A stretch of DNA of 30,922 bases from a virus, in the IMG/VR virus record IMGVR_UViG_3300044846_001198, positions 1 to 30,922 of that record. One strand, given 5' to 3'. The position numbers and the translations under genes were made by a program. How positions within the stretch are numbered: the stretch's first letter is position 1; each line of letters begins with the position of its first letter. Below are positions 12,151 to 23,276 of this stretch, one piece after another. The notes under the pieces are model-generated. The model was not told where the DNA came from. It was given only the letters and a program-made list of their open reading frames with translations, and ran no database searches.

Positions 12151-12180
12151 CTAATATAGTTAATGTATGCTAACCTACAA
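12151..12180 (-). promoter_or_regulatory. Candidate Bacteroidetes promoter for the 12146-11578 cluster
   Basis: On the minus strand TTG (12178-12180), a 19-base spacer and TATATTAG (12151-12158) differ from the TTG-N19-TAnnTTTG consensus at one position. It would start transcription within a few bases of ATG 12146, so the message would have almost no leader. Confidence 0.4.
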
Positions 12181-13477
12181 CGTATTGTCCATAACTCGGA
12201 TTCAGTTCGAAGAACATTCGCATCATAATTGCGTCGGCAACGTCGGGACTAATTCCTTCTCGGTTCTTGATTACGTCCTTCGGTGTTACTTGCAACTTTC
12301 CTTCCACGTCAGCTCGGTGTCGTTTAATCATCTCCAGTTCTTTCACGATTTGTTCCTTGCGTCCATTGACAAGAATTGTTATCTTGTTTTCTTCGACGTA
12401 TTGCGCGAGTTTGTAGTAACATTCGCTTTTCAAATTTTGGTATTGCGGTTGTTTTGGTTTTGATCCGTTGACAAACCCTCGACACTTAAGAAAATCAACC
12501 ACTCCACCACCAACACCGTCTTCATCCGCAATAACATCTTGTAACAAAATTGAGTGTTCTTTTGTTACGAGGCGAATCTTGTTCACGACCTCATCTAACG
12601 ACGCTCTGCTCATCTCGATTAAGTCAATAAGTGTTAACCCATTCCAAACGCAGATAATCGTTCTATCCTTTCCAAAACGCGCTATGTCGGCTGTGATATA
12701 TTTCTTTCCTTCAATCAATTCATTGCGGAACATACGAAGCAAATTATCGGTTGAGAATAGTTTGTCGCTGTCGTCGTCGAACTCCCAATTGCCTTCTAAA
12801 AGTCTTTTGCGGTCGTATTCAGGAAGGCGTCTAAGAGATTCAATATAAGCAACCGGTAAGAATGGATTGTCCTGCGGTAACGCTTGCACGAAGGCGCGGT
12901 GTGAAGGTAGTTCGTTGCGGTTGTTCTTCATGTAGAACTCGTTGTAGAGCCAACCCTTCGAAGGATTGCACGACAAGAAACCTTTGGGAATAAGACCAAA
13001 CTCGTTCAACTTAAAACGACAACGCGAATGCACGATGTTGACCGCCTTTTCGCTTACTTCGGATACCTCATCTATGAAGTAGTCTGTGAGCTCCATCGAT
13101 CCAAGTTGGTCGAAGTTTGGATTTGACGGATAGCTAAACAAATCTTTTAGCACTATTTCACTTCCGTTGAAGAACTTAATTATGTTCGATTGACCGTTGT
13201 ATGTGTAATGTTTGTCTGCAACTAAACCAAAGTCTTGCGCTGTTTCAAAGAAGGTGTTTAAGGTCGTCTTTTTTAAGGTGTCTAACTTTGCACGTCCAAT
13301 TAAAGAACGTGTCCCTGCGTACTTCAAACGACGTTGTATCTGCCACATACAACCGAACTTCGTCTTTCCACCCCCTGCCGCGCCACCGTATAATAACTGT
13401 TCAACGATGCTGTCGGTGTTCAGGTAGTTCAACGCTTCAATCTGACGCGGCAGGTATGTCGGTTTATAAGGTGTCAT
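12170..13477 (-). CDS. terL: Terminase large subunit
   Basis: 435 residues with both terminase domains. ATPase: Walker A GGAAGGGKT (31-39), Walker B YFIDE (133-137), coupling-type motif LSCNPS (169-173). Nuclease: TADIARFGKD (Asp264), ADEDGVGGG (Asp318/320) and SPDVADAIM (Asp411/414). It drives DNA into the prohead and cuts it. It is coded on the leftward strand, away from portal and capsid and opposite to the likely small subunit at 22863. It overlaps the methyltransferase stop by 14 bases. Confidence 0.93.
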   Translation of the reverse strand: MTPYKPTYLPRQIEALNYLNTDSIVEQLLYGGAAGGGKTKFGCMWQIQRRLKYAGTRSLIGRAKLDTLKKTTLNTFFETAQDFGLVADKHYTYNGQSNIIKFFNGSEIVLKDLFSYPSNPNFDQLGSMELTDYFIDEVSEVSEKAVNIVHSRCRFKLNEFGLIPKGFLSCNPSKGWLYNEFYMKNNRNELPSHRAFVQALPQDNPFLPVAYIESLRRLPEYDRKRLLEGNWEFDDDSDKLFSTDNLLRMFRNELIEGKKYITADIARFGKDRTIICVWNGLTLIDLIEMSRASLDEVVNKIRLVTKEHSILLQDVIADEDGVGGGVVDFLKCRGFVNGSKPKQPQYQNLKSECYYKLAQYVEENKITILVNGRKEQIVKELEMIKRHRADVEGKLQVTPKDVIKNREGISPDVADAIMMRMFFELNPSYGQYVVG

Positions 13478-14426
13478 TTAGTCGTTGTATTACCTTAAAT
13501 ATCTCATAAGCAACCTGTGGAACGATTGCATTTCCATAACCCTTTATTGATTCTGCTCTCCACTTTGAAAAGGTAATTCCGTCCAGTTCGGTGGAAAGCC
13601 CATCATCTCCGCCACAAATCGGGGATTGAGATGGGAACGTGTCCCAAAAGCCTCGTTTATTTGACTGCCTAAATCGTCTCCCTTCCAATTCTCGGTTTTC
13701 CAATGCATATTCTTGTCCGATGTTTTTGGTGTAAGCAGCAGCCCCATACTCAACATTCTCGGCAATGTCATTGAGTGCATTGATCCCTCTTTGACTTGGC
13801 TGCTCTTCATTGTTGCACTCGCATTCGTGCTGTCGAATACTGTTGGTGTTGGTAATAAATGCTGCATCTTCCTTCCTTGTATTACATCGTTCAAACTCGC
13901 TCCGTAACCCTCCGATGTTTTCCCCGGCTCTTGCGCTCTTGGAGTAGGCCACAAACCATATTCGGTCTCTTCGGTGTGGCGCACCGACGGAACAAGCTGG
14001 CAATAATATCGGTTGTACTTCGTACCCTTGACTTTCCAAGTCAACGCACACTTCTTCGAAGACCATTCCCCCATTCCAATTAGTAAGTCCACGAACGTTT
14101 TCGCCCACAACGTAGGTTGGTTTAACTTCTGAAATGACTCTGAGCATATGCGGCCAGAGGTGTCGCTCGTCCTCTTTCCCAAGTCGCTTTCCTGCGCTTG
14201 AGTAAGGTTGGCATGGAAACCCTCCTGTGAGTATGTCAATTGTTCCTCGGTGAATAGAGAAATCTGTCTTTGTGATATCTTCATAACTAATTGAATTTGG
14301 AAAATAATGACTTAAAACTTTGCGAGGGAAAGGCATCCATTCGCAGTGAAAGATGTTATCCCATCCCATCCATTCAGCGGCTAAATCGAAGCCACCGATT
14401 CCGCTAAACAACAATCCGTGATTCAT
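13464..14426 (-). CDS. DNA (cytosine-5) methyltransferase
   Basis: 320 residues with the ordered C5-methylase motifs: I LFSGIGGFDLA (6-16), IV GGFPCQPYS with catalytic Cys72, VI ENV (109-111), VIII APHRRDRIWFVA (149-160) and X GYGNAIVPQVA (296-306). The variable target-recognition region (about 165-290) is the part that also codes another protein in a second frame (13544-14284). The enzyme methylates cytosine in a sequence context not readable from the gene. It probably shields phage DNA from host restriction. No partner endonuclease is seen. Confidence 0.95.
   Translation of the reverse strand: MNHGLLFSGIGGFDLAAEWMGWDNIFHCEWMPFPRKVLSHYFPNSISYEDITKTDFSIHRGTIDILTGGFPCQPYSSAGKRLGKEDERHLWPHMLRVISEVKPTYVVGENVRGLTNWNGGMVFEEVCVDLESQGYEVQPILLPACSVGAPHRRDRIWFVAYSKSARAGENIGGLRSEFERCNTRKEDAAFITNTNSIRQHECECNNEEQPSQRGINALNDIAENVEYGAAAYTKNIGQEYALENRELEGRRFRQSNKRGFWDTFPSQSPICGGDDGLSTELDGITFSKWRAESIKGYGNAIVPQVAYEIFKVIQRLNDTL
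13544..14284 (-). CDS. Second protein coded inside the methyltransferase gene in another frame
   Basis: 246 residues, same strand as the methylase but a different frame, lying wholly inside it. It is not a random shadow: the protein is well behaved, with LWAKTFVDLLIGMGEWSSKK, ALTWKVKGTKYNRYYCQLVP, GLWPTPRAQ, LLPTPTVFDS and near the end LNPRFVAEMMGFPPNWTELP. From memory these segments recur in proteins found overlapping or next to phage C5 methylases. A 741-base open frame inside a conserved gene is also unlikely by chance. Function unknown. A methylase helper or specificity partner is a guess. Start ATG 14284 follows methylase codon 47. Confidence 0.65.
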   Translation of the reverse strand: MKISQRQISLFTEEQLTYSQEGFHANLTQAQESDLGKRTSDTSGRICSESFQKLNQPTLWAKTFVDLLIGMGEWSSKKCALTWKVKGTKYNRYYCQLVPSVRHTEETEYGLWPTPRAQEPGKTSEGYGASLNDVIQGRKMQHLLPTPTVFDSTNASATMKSSQVKEGSMHSMTLPRMLSMGLLLTPKTSDKNMHWKTENWKGDDLGSQINEAFGTRSHLNPRFVAEMMGFPPNWTELPFQSGEQNQ

Positions 14427-20237: not shown

Positions 20238-20408
20238 TTATTTAGCGCAAACTACTTCAGTAGCCCAACTGTAAAGAATCATTACTTTATTTTCATTCCA
20301 TTCTTGTGCTGTGATTCCGTTTTGTTTTGCAACGTTTGCGCAATGCTTACGAAATTCAATTGAGTTGATTAACTCTTCTACTTTTGACATGATTGTTTGT
20401 GTGTTCAT
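20238..20408 (-). CDS. First gene of the leftward arm, small unknown protein
   Basis: 56 residues: MNTQTIMSKVEELINSIEFR, then NGITAQEWNENKVMILYSWA and EVVCAK. It sits about 30 bases after the promoter start region at 20444-20473 and one base before the next gene. A second Met at position 7 is an alternative start. It would be among the first proteins made. Confidence 0.6.
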   Translation of the reverse strand: MNTQTIMSKVEELINSIEFRKHCANVAKQNGITAQEWNENKVMILYSWATEVVCAK

Positions 20409-20518
20409 TTTGTTTATCTTTGGTGTTGTTGTTAATTGTTTGACAAATATATGCTAAACTTTTGAGATAGCAAGAAAAAAATAAACTTTTTTTGAAAATA
20501 ATTTCTAACTGATTGAAA
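20409..20518. promoter_or_regulatory. Divergent intergenic control region
   Basis: This AT-rich stretch separates the two transcription arms. It holds a clear leftward promoter (20444-20473). For the rightward arm I see no exact match: TTTG at 20461-20464 with TAAACTTT at 20482-20489 is a weak candidate. A7 and T7 runs (about 20475-20494) may bend the DNA. Confidence 0.6.
20444..20473 (-). promoter_or_regulatory. Leftward early promoter, Bacteroidetes type
   Basis: On the minus strand TTG (20471-20473), a 19-base spacer and TATATTTG (20444-20451) match TTG-N19-TAnnTTTG exactly. The expected start is near 20437, giving a leader of about 28 bases rich in ACAAC before ATG 20408. Confidence 0.7.
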
Positions 20519-20923: not shown

Positions 20924-21423
20924 CACTTGACCACTACATAGAAGGACATTACAAAAAGTTCAAAGAACTTGCGAAGAACATTTCGCGAGGTGAGGATTAC
21001 TACGAAGACTTACTTCACGACTCTTTACTTTCTATGTTTGGTTCAAAGCATATCGAGAATCTAATTGATACAGGCGACTTTGAGTTCTATCTTATTCGCG
21101 TTATGTATTTGTCGGTTAACAGTCCAACGTCGCCATTCTACAAACAAACAATCGCGTGGAACAGAAACCGTCGCGACTTCAAAGACTATGCGCACGAAGT
21201 GGACAAGACGTGGTTAGGTCACCGAATGACAAACGAGCAACTGGACATTCTTATAAGTAGGTTGAGTGAATTTGAACGGTTAATCTTTCAAGAATATATT
21301 TTAGAAGACTTCACCTATCGTGCGCTATCGAAAGAAACAGGAATACCGATGCCTTTCTTATATCGGACAATAGATAGTATAAAACAAAAAATAAGAGCAA
21401 ATGTTATTCGCAAAACACAATGA
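20920..21423 (+). CDS. Sigma-factor-like transcription regulator
   Basis: 167 residues from a TTG start that overlaps the nuclease stop as TTGA; no ATG is suitably placed. The first half (FKELAKNISRGEDYYEDLLH, DSLLSMF) resembles sigma region 2. The end (LSEFERLIFQEYILEDFTYR, ALSKETGIPMPFLYRTIDSI) resembles region 4, a helix-turn-helix read as E-T-G-I-P-M-P-F. The middle has NSPTSPFYKQT, a motif I recall from phage proteins of this kind. It may direct host RNA polymerase to late promoters. Key -10 contacts cannot be judged by eye. Confidence 0.6.
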   Translation: MTLDHYIEGHYKKFKELAKNISRGEDYYEDLLHDSLLSMFGSKHIENLIDTGDFEFYLIRVMYLSVNSPTSPFYKQTIAWNRNRRDFKDYAHEVDKTWLGHRMTNEQLDILISRLSEFERLIFQEYILEDFTYRALSKETGIPMPFLYRTIDSIKQKIRANVIRKTQ

Positions 21424-21835
21424 GTACAAAAGACGTTTGGATATATGCCGAACGTGCAAATTCTTCGAAGCATCAACGCAATCTTGCGGTACTTTAATAG
21501 TAGGCGACGAAGTCGAAACCGAAGTCCTATTCCGTCGCAAGTCGATAAAACTTTGCGGATGTGTAATGCCAGTCAAGGCAAAACTCGCCTTCGCATCTTG
21601 TCCTGCATCTAAATGGAACGGTGTTCTTTCACTTGAAGAACAAATCGAGTTCAAACGCTTTCTTCTTGACGCGCAAAAGAAGGGCAGGATTGATGCGATA
21701 GACCTCAGCAAGTTCTACACCTTCAAAGACAAGGCAACAGGCGCTTACAACGAGCGTTCTACTTGTGGCGCGTGTGTGAAGAAAGACATCAATACGTTTC
21801 TTGAATCAATGAAGGATGTTGAAATAGGTGAATAA
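21401..21835 (+). CDS. Cysteine-rich, probably zinc-binding protein
   Basis: 144 residues from ATG 21401, overlapping the sigma-like gene by 23 bases. Cysteines are arranged as CRTC (16-19), C29, CGC (52-54) and C67 (ASCPASKW), then a second CxxC (CGAC) near the C terminus. This looks like a zinc-binding family recurring in Bacteroidetes phages, often near sigma-like genes. It may bind DNA or the transcription complex. Function inferred only weakly. Confidence 0.6.
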   Translation: MLFAKHNEYKRRLDICRTCKFFEASTQSCGTLIVGDEVETEVLFRRKSIKLCGCVMPVKAKLAFASCPASKWNGVLSLEEQIEFKRFLLDAQKKGRIDAIDLSKFYTFKDKATGAYNERSTCGACVKKDINTFLESMKDVEIGE

Positions 21836-21842
21836 CTTATCG

Positions 21843-21872
21843 TTGTAACAATTGACATTCAAAGTATATTTG
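21843..21872 (+). promoter_or_regulatory. Strong Bacteroidetes-type promoter ahead of the structured RNA
   Basis: TTG (21843-21845), a 19-base spacer and TATATTTG (21865-21872): an exact TTG-N19-TAnnTTTG match in intergenic sequence, eight bases after the previous stop. Transcription should start near 21878, right at the first helix of the pseudoknot. Confidence 0.7.
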
Positions 21873-21877
21873 TTACA

Positions 21878-22256
21878 GCCAAGCATTGCGATACTACCCC
21901 CTTTTGTTTTTGCTTGGCGGCATAAGACAATTGGGGGTATATTTTTTATCGTCGGGAGTATTGAACGGCAGGGTAAAAGATGAATTAGGGCAACTGTGGG
22001 ATTGTGTTAAAGCCCAATGGTATGACAAAGGAATAAGCCATACGACACACGGAGAGGCAATTCTTCGAAAGATAGATTCCAAACTCAAGGACATTGCTGT
22101 TCACTTGAGGACACGACAGCGAGAGACTCATTCGACGGAGTAATTATCGCAAAAGTGAGAGTCCAACATTTAGAGAAATCTATTTGAAGGATACTTCTAT
22201 CTCTCACTTAGCTCCAGATCTAATCTCGGGAGTAATTAATATACTGAGTGTTTTTT
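21878..22256 (+). ncRNA. Candidate structured RNA, about 380 nt, with 5' pseudoknot and 3' terminator
   Basis: No gene with an ATG start fits 21836-22275. Starting where the promoter predicts, GCCAAGC (21878-21884) pairs with GCTTGGC (21912-21918), and TACCCCC in its loop (21895-21901) pairs with GGGGGTA (21933-21939): an H-type pseudoknot of two perfect 7-bp stems. Further stems: CTCAAG/CTTGAG (22084-22089 with 22104-22109) and AAGTGAGAG/CTCTCACTT (22153-22161 with 22201-22209), the latter enclosing hairpins TAGA-GAAA-TCTA and GAAG-GATA-CTTC. A terminator-type stem with T6 ends it. A TTG-started 60-codon frame (21961-22143) exists, but it uses CGA, AGG, GGG and CAG unlike real genes here. 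It matches no RNA class I know. It may be a free RNA or a leader of the next gene. Confidence 0.5.
22205..22256 (+). terminator. Terminator or attenuator at the end of the structured RNA
   Basis: CACTTAG (22205-22211) pairs with CTGAGTG (22244-22250, one wobble), enclosing a hairpin CTCC-AGAT-CTA-ATCT-CG-GGAG (22212-22232). TTTTTT follows at 22251-22256. Its left arm overlaps the 3' arm of the 9-bp helix 22153-22161/22201-22209, so the two folds exclude each other, as in an attenuator. Confidence 0.5.
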
Positions 22257-22862: not shown

Positions 22863-23276
22863 ATGAGTAAGGAAGAAAACAAACCACAAAACGCAACACT
22901 AAAAAAGACTGCTATGCTAAAGGCATTGGAATCTACTTTGGGTGTCGTAACGTCAGCGTGTGAGATTGTCGGAATAGATAGGACAACGCACTATCGTTGG
23001 TTGCAAGAAGACGAAGACTACAAAGCAAAGGTTGAATCGTTATCTGACCTTGCCGTTGACTTCGCAGAAAGTCAGTTGTTTGAATTGATTAAGGGAGCGC
23101 ACCGCGAGGTGTCAACACCAGACGGTGAAGTAATCCGCATTCAAGACGCTCCAAACACAAGCGCGACAATCTTCTATTTGAAGACACGCGGAAAGAAACG
23201 AGGGTACGTTGAACGAACTGAATTAGCAGGTGTGAACGATGCGCCAATTCAAATAATAATCAATGACAAATTATAA
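22863..23276 (+). CDS. Probable terminase small subunit
   Basis: 137 residues. A helix-turn-helix of the kind used by small terminases spans about 18-50: AMLKALESTLGVVTSACEIV, GIDRTTHYRWLQEDEDYKAK. A helical oligomerisation-type region (LAVDFAESQLFELIKGAHRE) and a short C-terminal part (TIFYLKTRGKKRGYVERTEL) follow. These match phage small terminase/phBC6A51-like proteins that recognise phage DNA for packaging. The partner large subunit is about 9.4 kb away on the opposite strand. Confidence 0.7.
   Translation: MSKEENKPQNATLKKTAMLKALESTLGVVTSACEIVGIDRTTHYRWLQEDEDYKAKVESLSDLAVDFAESQLFELIKGAHREVSTPDGEVIRIQDAPNTSATIFYLKTRGKKRGYVERTELAGVNDAPIQIIINDKL

Follow-up and report, generated by a model that had tools for sequence, protein, structure and literature searches.

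The stretch of DNA analyzed here (the window, 30,922 nucleotides) is a single virus record of a tailed phage with genes for terminase, portal, tape measure, and endolysin. At the locus of interest, the order is VRR-NUC, a sigma-like gene (sig), a zinc-ribbon gene (U), the RNA described below, and the terminase small subunit; the small-subunit-like gene lies at position 22863 and the large-subunit gene at 12170. The window contains no tRNA or tmRNA gene, and a scan of its proteins, which covered small open reading frames only in part, detected neither an integrase nor a repressor; the lineage seems to be lytic. Judged by the portal protein, its closest annotated phages are the Nonlabens phages P12024S and P12024L (ca. 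29% identity), whose hosts are marine Flavobacteriaceae. VRR-NUC and sigma-like genes are present in both, the genes are tightly packed, and no such RNA locus lies between those genes and the large terminase gene. At the DNA level, no relatives were found among annotated phages and plasmids. The phages that carry the RNA are a family of small aquatic (water-borne) phages. Elsewhere in the window, divergent promoters of the Bacteroidetes type (20393 to 20422 on the plus strand and 20473 to 20444 on the minus strand) separate the early genes, on the minus strand, from the operon of VRR-NUC, the sigma-like gene, and U. There is also a 246-amino-acid open reading frame (13544 to 14284, minus strand) that overlaps a cytosine methyltransferase gene (13464 to 14426) in another frame of the same strand; it has a protein-like look, ends in MMGFPPNWTELPFQSGEQNQ, and is possibly an overlapping gene.

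Two scans with flanking proteins yielded 140 related loci, to which three DNA pattern scans added further ones. The RNA locus lies between the sigma-like and U genes and the late genes in every phage examined, and its position after VRR-NUC, sig, and U is retained even where U is only 25 to 34% identical to that of the window. Between U and the terminase side, the relatives carry one of three bodies, which we term A (that of the window), B, and C; the first set comprised 23, 40, and 17 distinct loci of these types, respectively. U itself (21401 to 21835, plus strand) adjoins the RNA in all phages examined and encodes a zinc-ribbon-like protein in which cysteines C16, C19, C29, C52, C54, C67, C122, and C125 are invariant (14 homologues, with identity down to 18%). 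The U protein would be the obvious candidate for a partner of the RNA. The U proteins of the L235, L261, and L269 group carry a basic tail (KKRRAKRKKL), which suggests nucleic acid binding.

Transcription had been proposed, in a preliminary description of this DNA, to start from a TTG-N19-TAnnTTTG promoter; this motif, of the Bacteroidetes type, is exact in the window at 21843 to 21872 on the plus strand (TTG at 21843 to 21845; -7 box, TATATTTG, at 21865 to 21872). However, the window holds five matches to TTG-N18-20-box against 2.4 expected, so that the motif alone is weak evidence for a promoter. The -7 box is found in all 24 type A sequences, whereas a TTG at a spacing of N17 to N22 is found in only 3 of them, so that the -33 TTG lacks conservation. 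In place of TTG-N19, many relatives (L004, L006, and L070 among them) have a conserved GCAACyTTTG...AACGTATATTTG element upstream of the RNA, which is perhaps another class of promoter.

Directly behind the -7 box lies a pseudoknot. The 5′ strand of its stem S1 (GCCAAGCA, 21878 to 21885) is located at or no more than ca. 3 nucleotides from the inferred transcription start and pairs with a 3′ strand (TGCTTGGC, 21911 to 21918) within the apical loop of a terminator-like hairpin. The base of that hairpin is stem S2, in which TACCCCC (21895 to 21901) pairs with GGGGGTA (21933 to 21939). Comparison also revealed an extra helix, the upper stem P2b, formed by TTGTTTT (21904 to 21910) and AAGACAA (21924 to 21930), in which 11 of 51 sequences show a compensatory change from G-C to A-U. 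The two perfect 7-bp stems first described are thus both exact and S2 is indeed 7 bp long, but S1 has 8 bp, one more than was reported. A tract of six U residues (21942 to 21947), which the preliminary description did not point out, follows the hairpin directly; the conserved terminator-like element therefore lies at the 5′ domain and not at the 3′ end of the RNA. All of the features given for the RNA are on the plus strand.

The pseudoknot is present in all 23 or 24 close relatives compared. Across 51 distinct 5′ domains of the window's kind, 98.9% of cells are paired, versus 41 to 54% when the partners are slid. For S1 the paired fraction is 99.8%, and four of its eight pairs carry compensatory changes; for S2 with the upper stem it is 98.3%, with such changes at three pairs. 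The covariation sought is therefore present, both in these 51 domains and in the 23 type A sequences. Twelve S1 strand combinations are known, and nearly all are complementary. The domain is followed directly by body A or body B in 64 of 64 uncut, nonchimeric cases, and the two bodies have S1 alleles in common, which means that 5′ domain and body recombine. Seeming second copies of the domain in L065/L186 and L152/L177 were set aside, as these look like chimeric metagenome contigs. A long complementarity of some 5′ domains to the type B core (CCAAGCATTG/CAATGCTTGG) is not maintained among relatives and was dropped.

Body A (21941 to 22230), which is present once in each of the seven type A genomes and is missing from the genomes of the other types, is a highly conserved structured RNA. 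Among 17 genomes its mean pairwise identity is 95.0%, compared with 82.1% for sig, 81.1% for U, 84.8% for the D2 gene, and 81.4% for the 5′ domain. Over the whole type A RNA, 105 pairs are 99.4% paired in 23 sequences, and 14 of them show compensatory changes, against 8.3 in shuffles (0 of 500 reached 14). These lie in S1, in S2 and the upper stem, and in two hairpins of the body: at 22084 to 22109, CTCAAG/CTTGAG (7 of 23 sequences) alternates with CTAACG/CGTTAG (16 of 23) by a double compensatory change, and at 22167 to 22186 (CATTTAGA-GAAA-TCTATTTG) four pairs are affected. Most of the other body A helices are invariant, and covariation consequently says nothing about them. Helix 3 (21942 to 21954 with 21966 to 21969 and 21972 to 21980) is 100% paired in the 23 sequences, with one-sided changes only (G-U/A-U), and it includes an alternative pairing of the U-tract with 21975 to 21980. 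Folding of the 381-nucleotide RNA was better than that of 99 of 100 shuffles (z = -2.3), a modest result on its own.

Two structural details proposed for the window hold there but not among its relatives. A 9-bp stem (AAGTGAGAG/CTCTCACTT) is present in the window, but one of its pairs is gone in 13 of 23 sequences, so that the full stem is not conserved. Likewise, T6 does occur at 22251 to 22256, where it could be the 3′ terminator of the window copy, but T6 or longer is found in only 13 of 23 sequences and a terminator scan detected none at this place; a conserved 3′ terminator was ruled out on these grounds. The preliminary description had also argued from codon use against the only open frame (21961 to 22143), and here the comparison agrees with it. 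The 60 codons are open in the window, as they would be in a small protein gene; however, only 2 of the 23 aligned type A sequences keep the frame open, the other 21 having it interrupted, and it has no Pfam or PHROG match. We consider a small protein gene at this site to be practically out of the question, and it is nearly certain that 21865 to 22256 is a real structured noncoding RNA.

The same locus is occupied in other phages by bodies of quite different sequence. Exactly one RNA, in single copy, is found in each of 30 near-complete genomes (7 of type A, 17 of type B, and 6 of type C), with types A and C having been assigned by DNA and type B by a covariance model (R1). The R1 model gave one match in each of the 17 type B genomes, nothing significant in the 13 genomes of the other two types, and no match in the window; hence, the bodies are not recognizably related. 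Type B (53 sequences) comprises a hairpin, a pseudoknot from loop to downstream segment (PK2), and a two-tier core hairpin, and is 95.2% paired, a count in which one PK2 pair was entered as 15 with 24 instead of 31, the other pairs being valid. In the most distant type B members, the PK2 sequences are unrelated (UGCC/GGCA in L237 and GGCU/AGCC in L247). The type B core, ACUUGC-N3-A-N-A-N-CA-N2-GCUUGGA-N-CG, is retained in phages whose U is only 25 to 34% identical to that of the window, although this core was also the search pattern, so that selection of the sequences accounts in part for its lack of variation among them; that does not apply to the surrounding structure. When bacterial and archaeal genomes were searched with the type B core only, the single match, in a Phycisphaeraceae metagenome-assembled genome, was taken as chance. 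Type C, which has its own -7 box, is on the opposite strand, and an open scan for compensatory pairs, with no preset structure, found them in several of its helices.

Several other features accompany particular types. A conserved 75-amino-acid open reading frame (MSKINKKAKQELFIQLL...) follows the type C RNA on the same strand (L016, L018, L022, and others; minus strand) and was not seen there in type A or type B loci. Type B bodies (e.g., L011 at ca. 650 to 720, L218, and L053) are followed by a long, nearly pure U/C tract (CUUUUUCUUUUCUUUCUUUUUC...). In L217 (ca. 1 to 808), a type B body comes directly after another gene, with no 5′ domain adjoining it. The pyrimidine tract at the end of type B, together with the adjoining terminase small-subunit gene, might bring to mind a DNA site for packaging or replication origin function rather than an RNA. 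We regard this as very improbable, given that compensatory base changes occur in all three types, that a promoter box stands at a near-fixed distance, and that three unrelated sequences, on either strand, occupy the same place.

All of these bodies are preceded by one architecture, which recurs in nine sequence-unrelated families of 5′ domain. What the families share is a terminator-like hairpin, followed in all nine by a U-rich tail, and an apical loop complementary to an upstream segment that is usually the 5′ end of the RNA. The complementarity spans 6 to 10 nucleotides per family, with P values of 0.0005 to 0.027 each against shuffled upstream sequence; since the hairpins were delimited by eye before this comparison, the values are indicative. 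In six of the nine families, the upstream segment (S1) begins 3 to 6 nucleotides after TAnnTTTG, at the expected RNA start. In L237, L240, and L247, a first hairpin instead holds the segment in its loop, at a long distance from the 5′ end, so that the contact is from loop to loop, and here the hairpin and tail resemble a classic intrinsic terminator.

One way to read this architecture is as a stability element, in which S1 buries the 5′ end and protects a constitutive trans-acting RNA from decay, the U-tract being no working terminator. The placement of S1 at the expected start in six of nine families accords with this, as does the pairing of the type A U-tract with the body in 23 of 23 sequences (helix 3), which would be expected if the full-length RNA were the product; a hairpin paired through its loop could simply be a stable 5′ end. 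Pure end protection, however, needs no U-rich tail, and such a tail is kept in nine unrelated families. Moreover, in L237, L240, and L247, where hairpin and tail are terminator-like, S1 is distant from the 5′ end. On balance, we think it rather unlikely that protection of the 5′ end is the explanation.

RNA type and phage ancestry are poorly matched. On a tree of sig and U from 72 phages, the distribution of types needs 28 changes, compared with a mean of 30.3 after shuffling (29 of 200 shuffles needed as few), and very close phages may differ in type (L119 has A, L106 has C). As far as the flanking genes can tell, the scatter of types is almost random. That types have been exchanged often between phages is a safe conclusion; the tree has many weak forks and is itself affected by recombination. 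Such exchange, together with the complementarity kept in nearly all of the twelve S1 strand combinations, would suit an exclusion or immunity locus, in which either the short terminated RNA or the body would target the corresponding locus of a relative infecting the same cell, and S1 alleles and body types are specificities under frequency-dependent selection, as in the P4 CI RNA and plasmid incompatibility RNAs. Against this, three unrelated bodies are not necessarily specificities, and lysogeny genes were not found among the window proteins scanned. An immunity function of this kind strikes us as decidedly improbable.

Position suggests a further alternative, namely, a leader of the late operon, in which a host-type promoter and a terminator place D1, D2, the terminase small subunit, and the structural genes under read-through control, the regulator being U or the sigma-like protein (compare lambda P_R′/t_R′ with Q and HK022 put). 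Every phage examined has the locus where the sigma-like and U genes give way to the late genes; there is no consensus promoter from the RNA to D2 in the window; and types A and B have a promoter, a terminator-like hairpin, and a U-tract, with co-directional late genes. The type C RNA, however, runs on the strand opposite to that of the late genes, and in most of the type C cases listed D2 has its own near-consensus promoter 13 nucleotides upstream. Given the strand of type C, exclusive action in cis on the late genes cannot account for every type. The strongly conserved, structured bodies beyond the terminator would also be needless for a simple leader, and we judge this explanation to be unlikely.

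Taken together, these comparisons identify the locus as a two-part noncoding RNA gene that is a core element of this phage lineage, and its structure, noncoding nature, mutual exclusion, and modularity all follow from the alignments. The first part is the 5′ domain right behind the -7 box, whose apical loop, being complementary to an upstream segment, forms the pseudoknot; in the most distant phages, that segment itself lies in a hairpin loop. The second is a structured body of one of three unrelated and mutually exclusive kinds, with no obvious promoter of its own. The best-supported reading, which we hold to be evenly poised between right and wrong, is that an attenuator-type 5′ device governs a trans-acting RNA. 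According to this model, the hairpin and U-tract would be a conditional intrinsic terminator. The nascent 5′ end could pair with the future loop, possibly before the 3′ arm of the hairpin emerges, and it is through such early pairing that competition is proposed to set the extent of transcription into the body. The competitor might be a terminated short copy of the RNA, a protein, or the kinetics of RNA polymerase. Read-through would then produce the body, a folded RNA that would act in trans and would probably do so together with a protein, for which the neighboring zinc-ribbon protein U is the obvious candidate. More tentatively, the locus may be an "RNA cassette," in which a fixed 5′ device defined by no particular sequence (a promoter and a terminator hairpin whose loop pairs with an upstream segment of its own transcript) accepts several unrelated structured RNAs, which are swapped like exclusion or counterdefense alleles.

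The RNA classes and their arrangement are categorically new, whereas the mechanism may be of a known kind. Three structured RNA classes unmatched in Rfam, spread over dozens of virus contigs and joined by one 5′ architecture, provide a basis for a genetic and structural program. If a single locus can fulfil a core phage function with any of three unrelated RNAs, this would be an uncommon example of nonhomologous replacement of a noncoding RNA, and the nearly random exchange of types suggests that selection acts between phages or is imposed by hosts. If the 5′ device is an attenuator, it would be a general RNA switch that is defined by architecture only and is invisible to sequence-based searches.

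No Rfam family matched the window at the gathering threshold, in agreement with the earlier view that the RNA belongs to no recognized class. An E-value search of the element against Rfam 15 gave RF02932 as the best, weak match (31 bits against a cut-off of 49.4); for type B the best match reached 11 of 46 bits, and for type C there was none. Likenesses to a group I intron, RNase P, and tmRNA, seen by eye, were dropped because Rfam gave them no support. A search of the literature, with most subscription journals outside its range, turned up no paper describing such an RNA. The central proposal of the preliminary description, that the phage encodes a structured RNA of no known class which has a promoter of its own and a pseudoknot at its 5′ end, is thus supported, having withstood the Rfam search, the covariation analysis, and the search for protein homologues of the open frame.

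Parts of the arrangement have counterparts elsewhere. In the CI RNA of satellite phage P4, and in plasmid antisense attenuation, a hairpin loop has its complement elsewhere in the leader to which it belongs, and the output is termination. The P4 CI type of immunity RNA is a mechanistic analogue only, lysogeny and integration genes not having been found among the window proteins scanned. The packaging RNA of phi29, a core element of its phage, likewise has a pair of complementary loops within a single RNA, and the sequences of these loops covary; it belongs to a phage without a terminase small subunit and is bound to the portal. Here, in contrast, genes for both the small and large terminase subunits are present, and sizes and folds differ. 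The put RNA of HK022 is not known to have a knot with a U-tract. The lambda P_R′-t_R′ leader with Q and the HK022 put RNA resemble the present locus in being promoter proximal and in adjoining late genes behind a small regulator-like gene (PMC6606751, PMC9378689), with put acting in early transcripts (PMC9378689). The likeness to lambda Q/t_R′ and to put lies in possible termination control, and they are mechanistic analogues only. Unlike in the lambda and HK022 leaders, a conserved body follows here, and type C points away from the late genes. A general character is shared with ROOL and GOLLD, large RNAs of phages and prophages that are of unknown function and are stabilized by kissing loops (PMC12286853). 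Like the RNA described here, they are phage encoded and strongly structured, with pseudoknots and kissing loops. Their covariance models found no match in the window, however, and they are longer (ca. 660 to more than 800 nucleotides, against ca. 390 here) and often lie near tRNA islands, whereas the window is without a tRNA or tmRNA gene. Unlike ROOL and GOLLD, the locus described here places three interchangeable bodies under one 5′ architecture.
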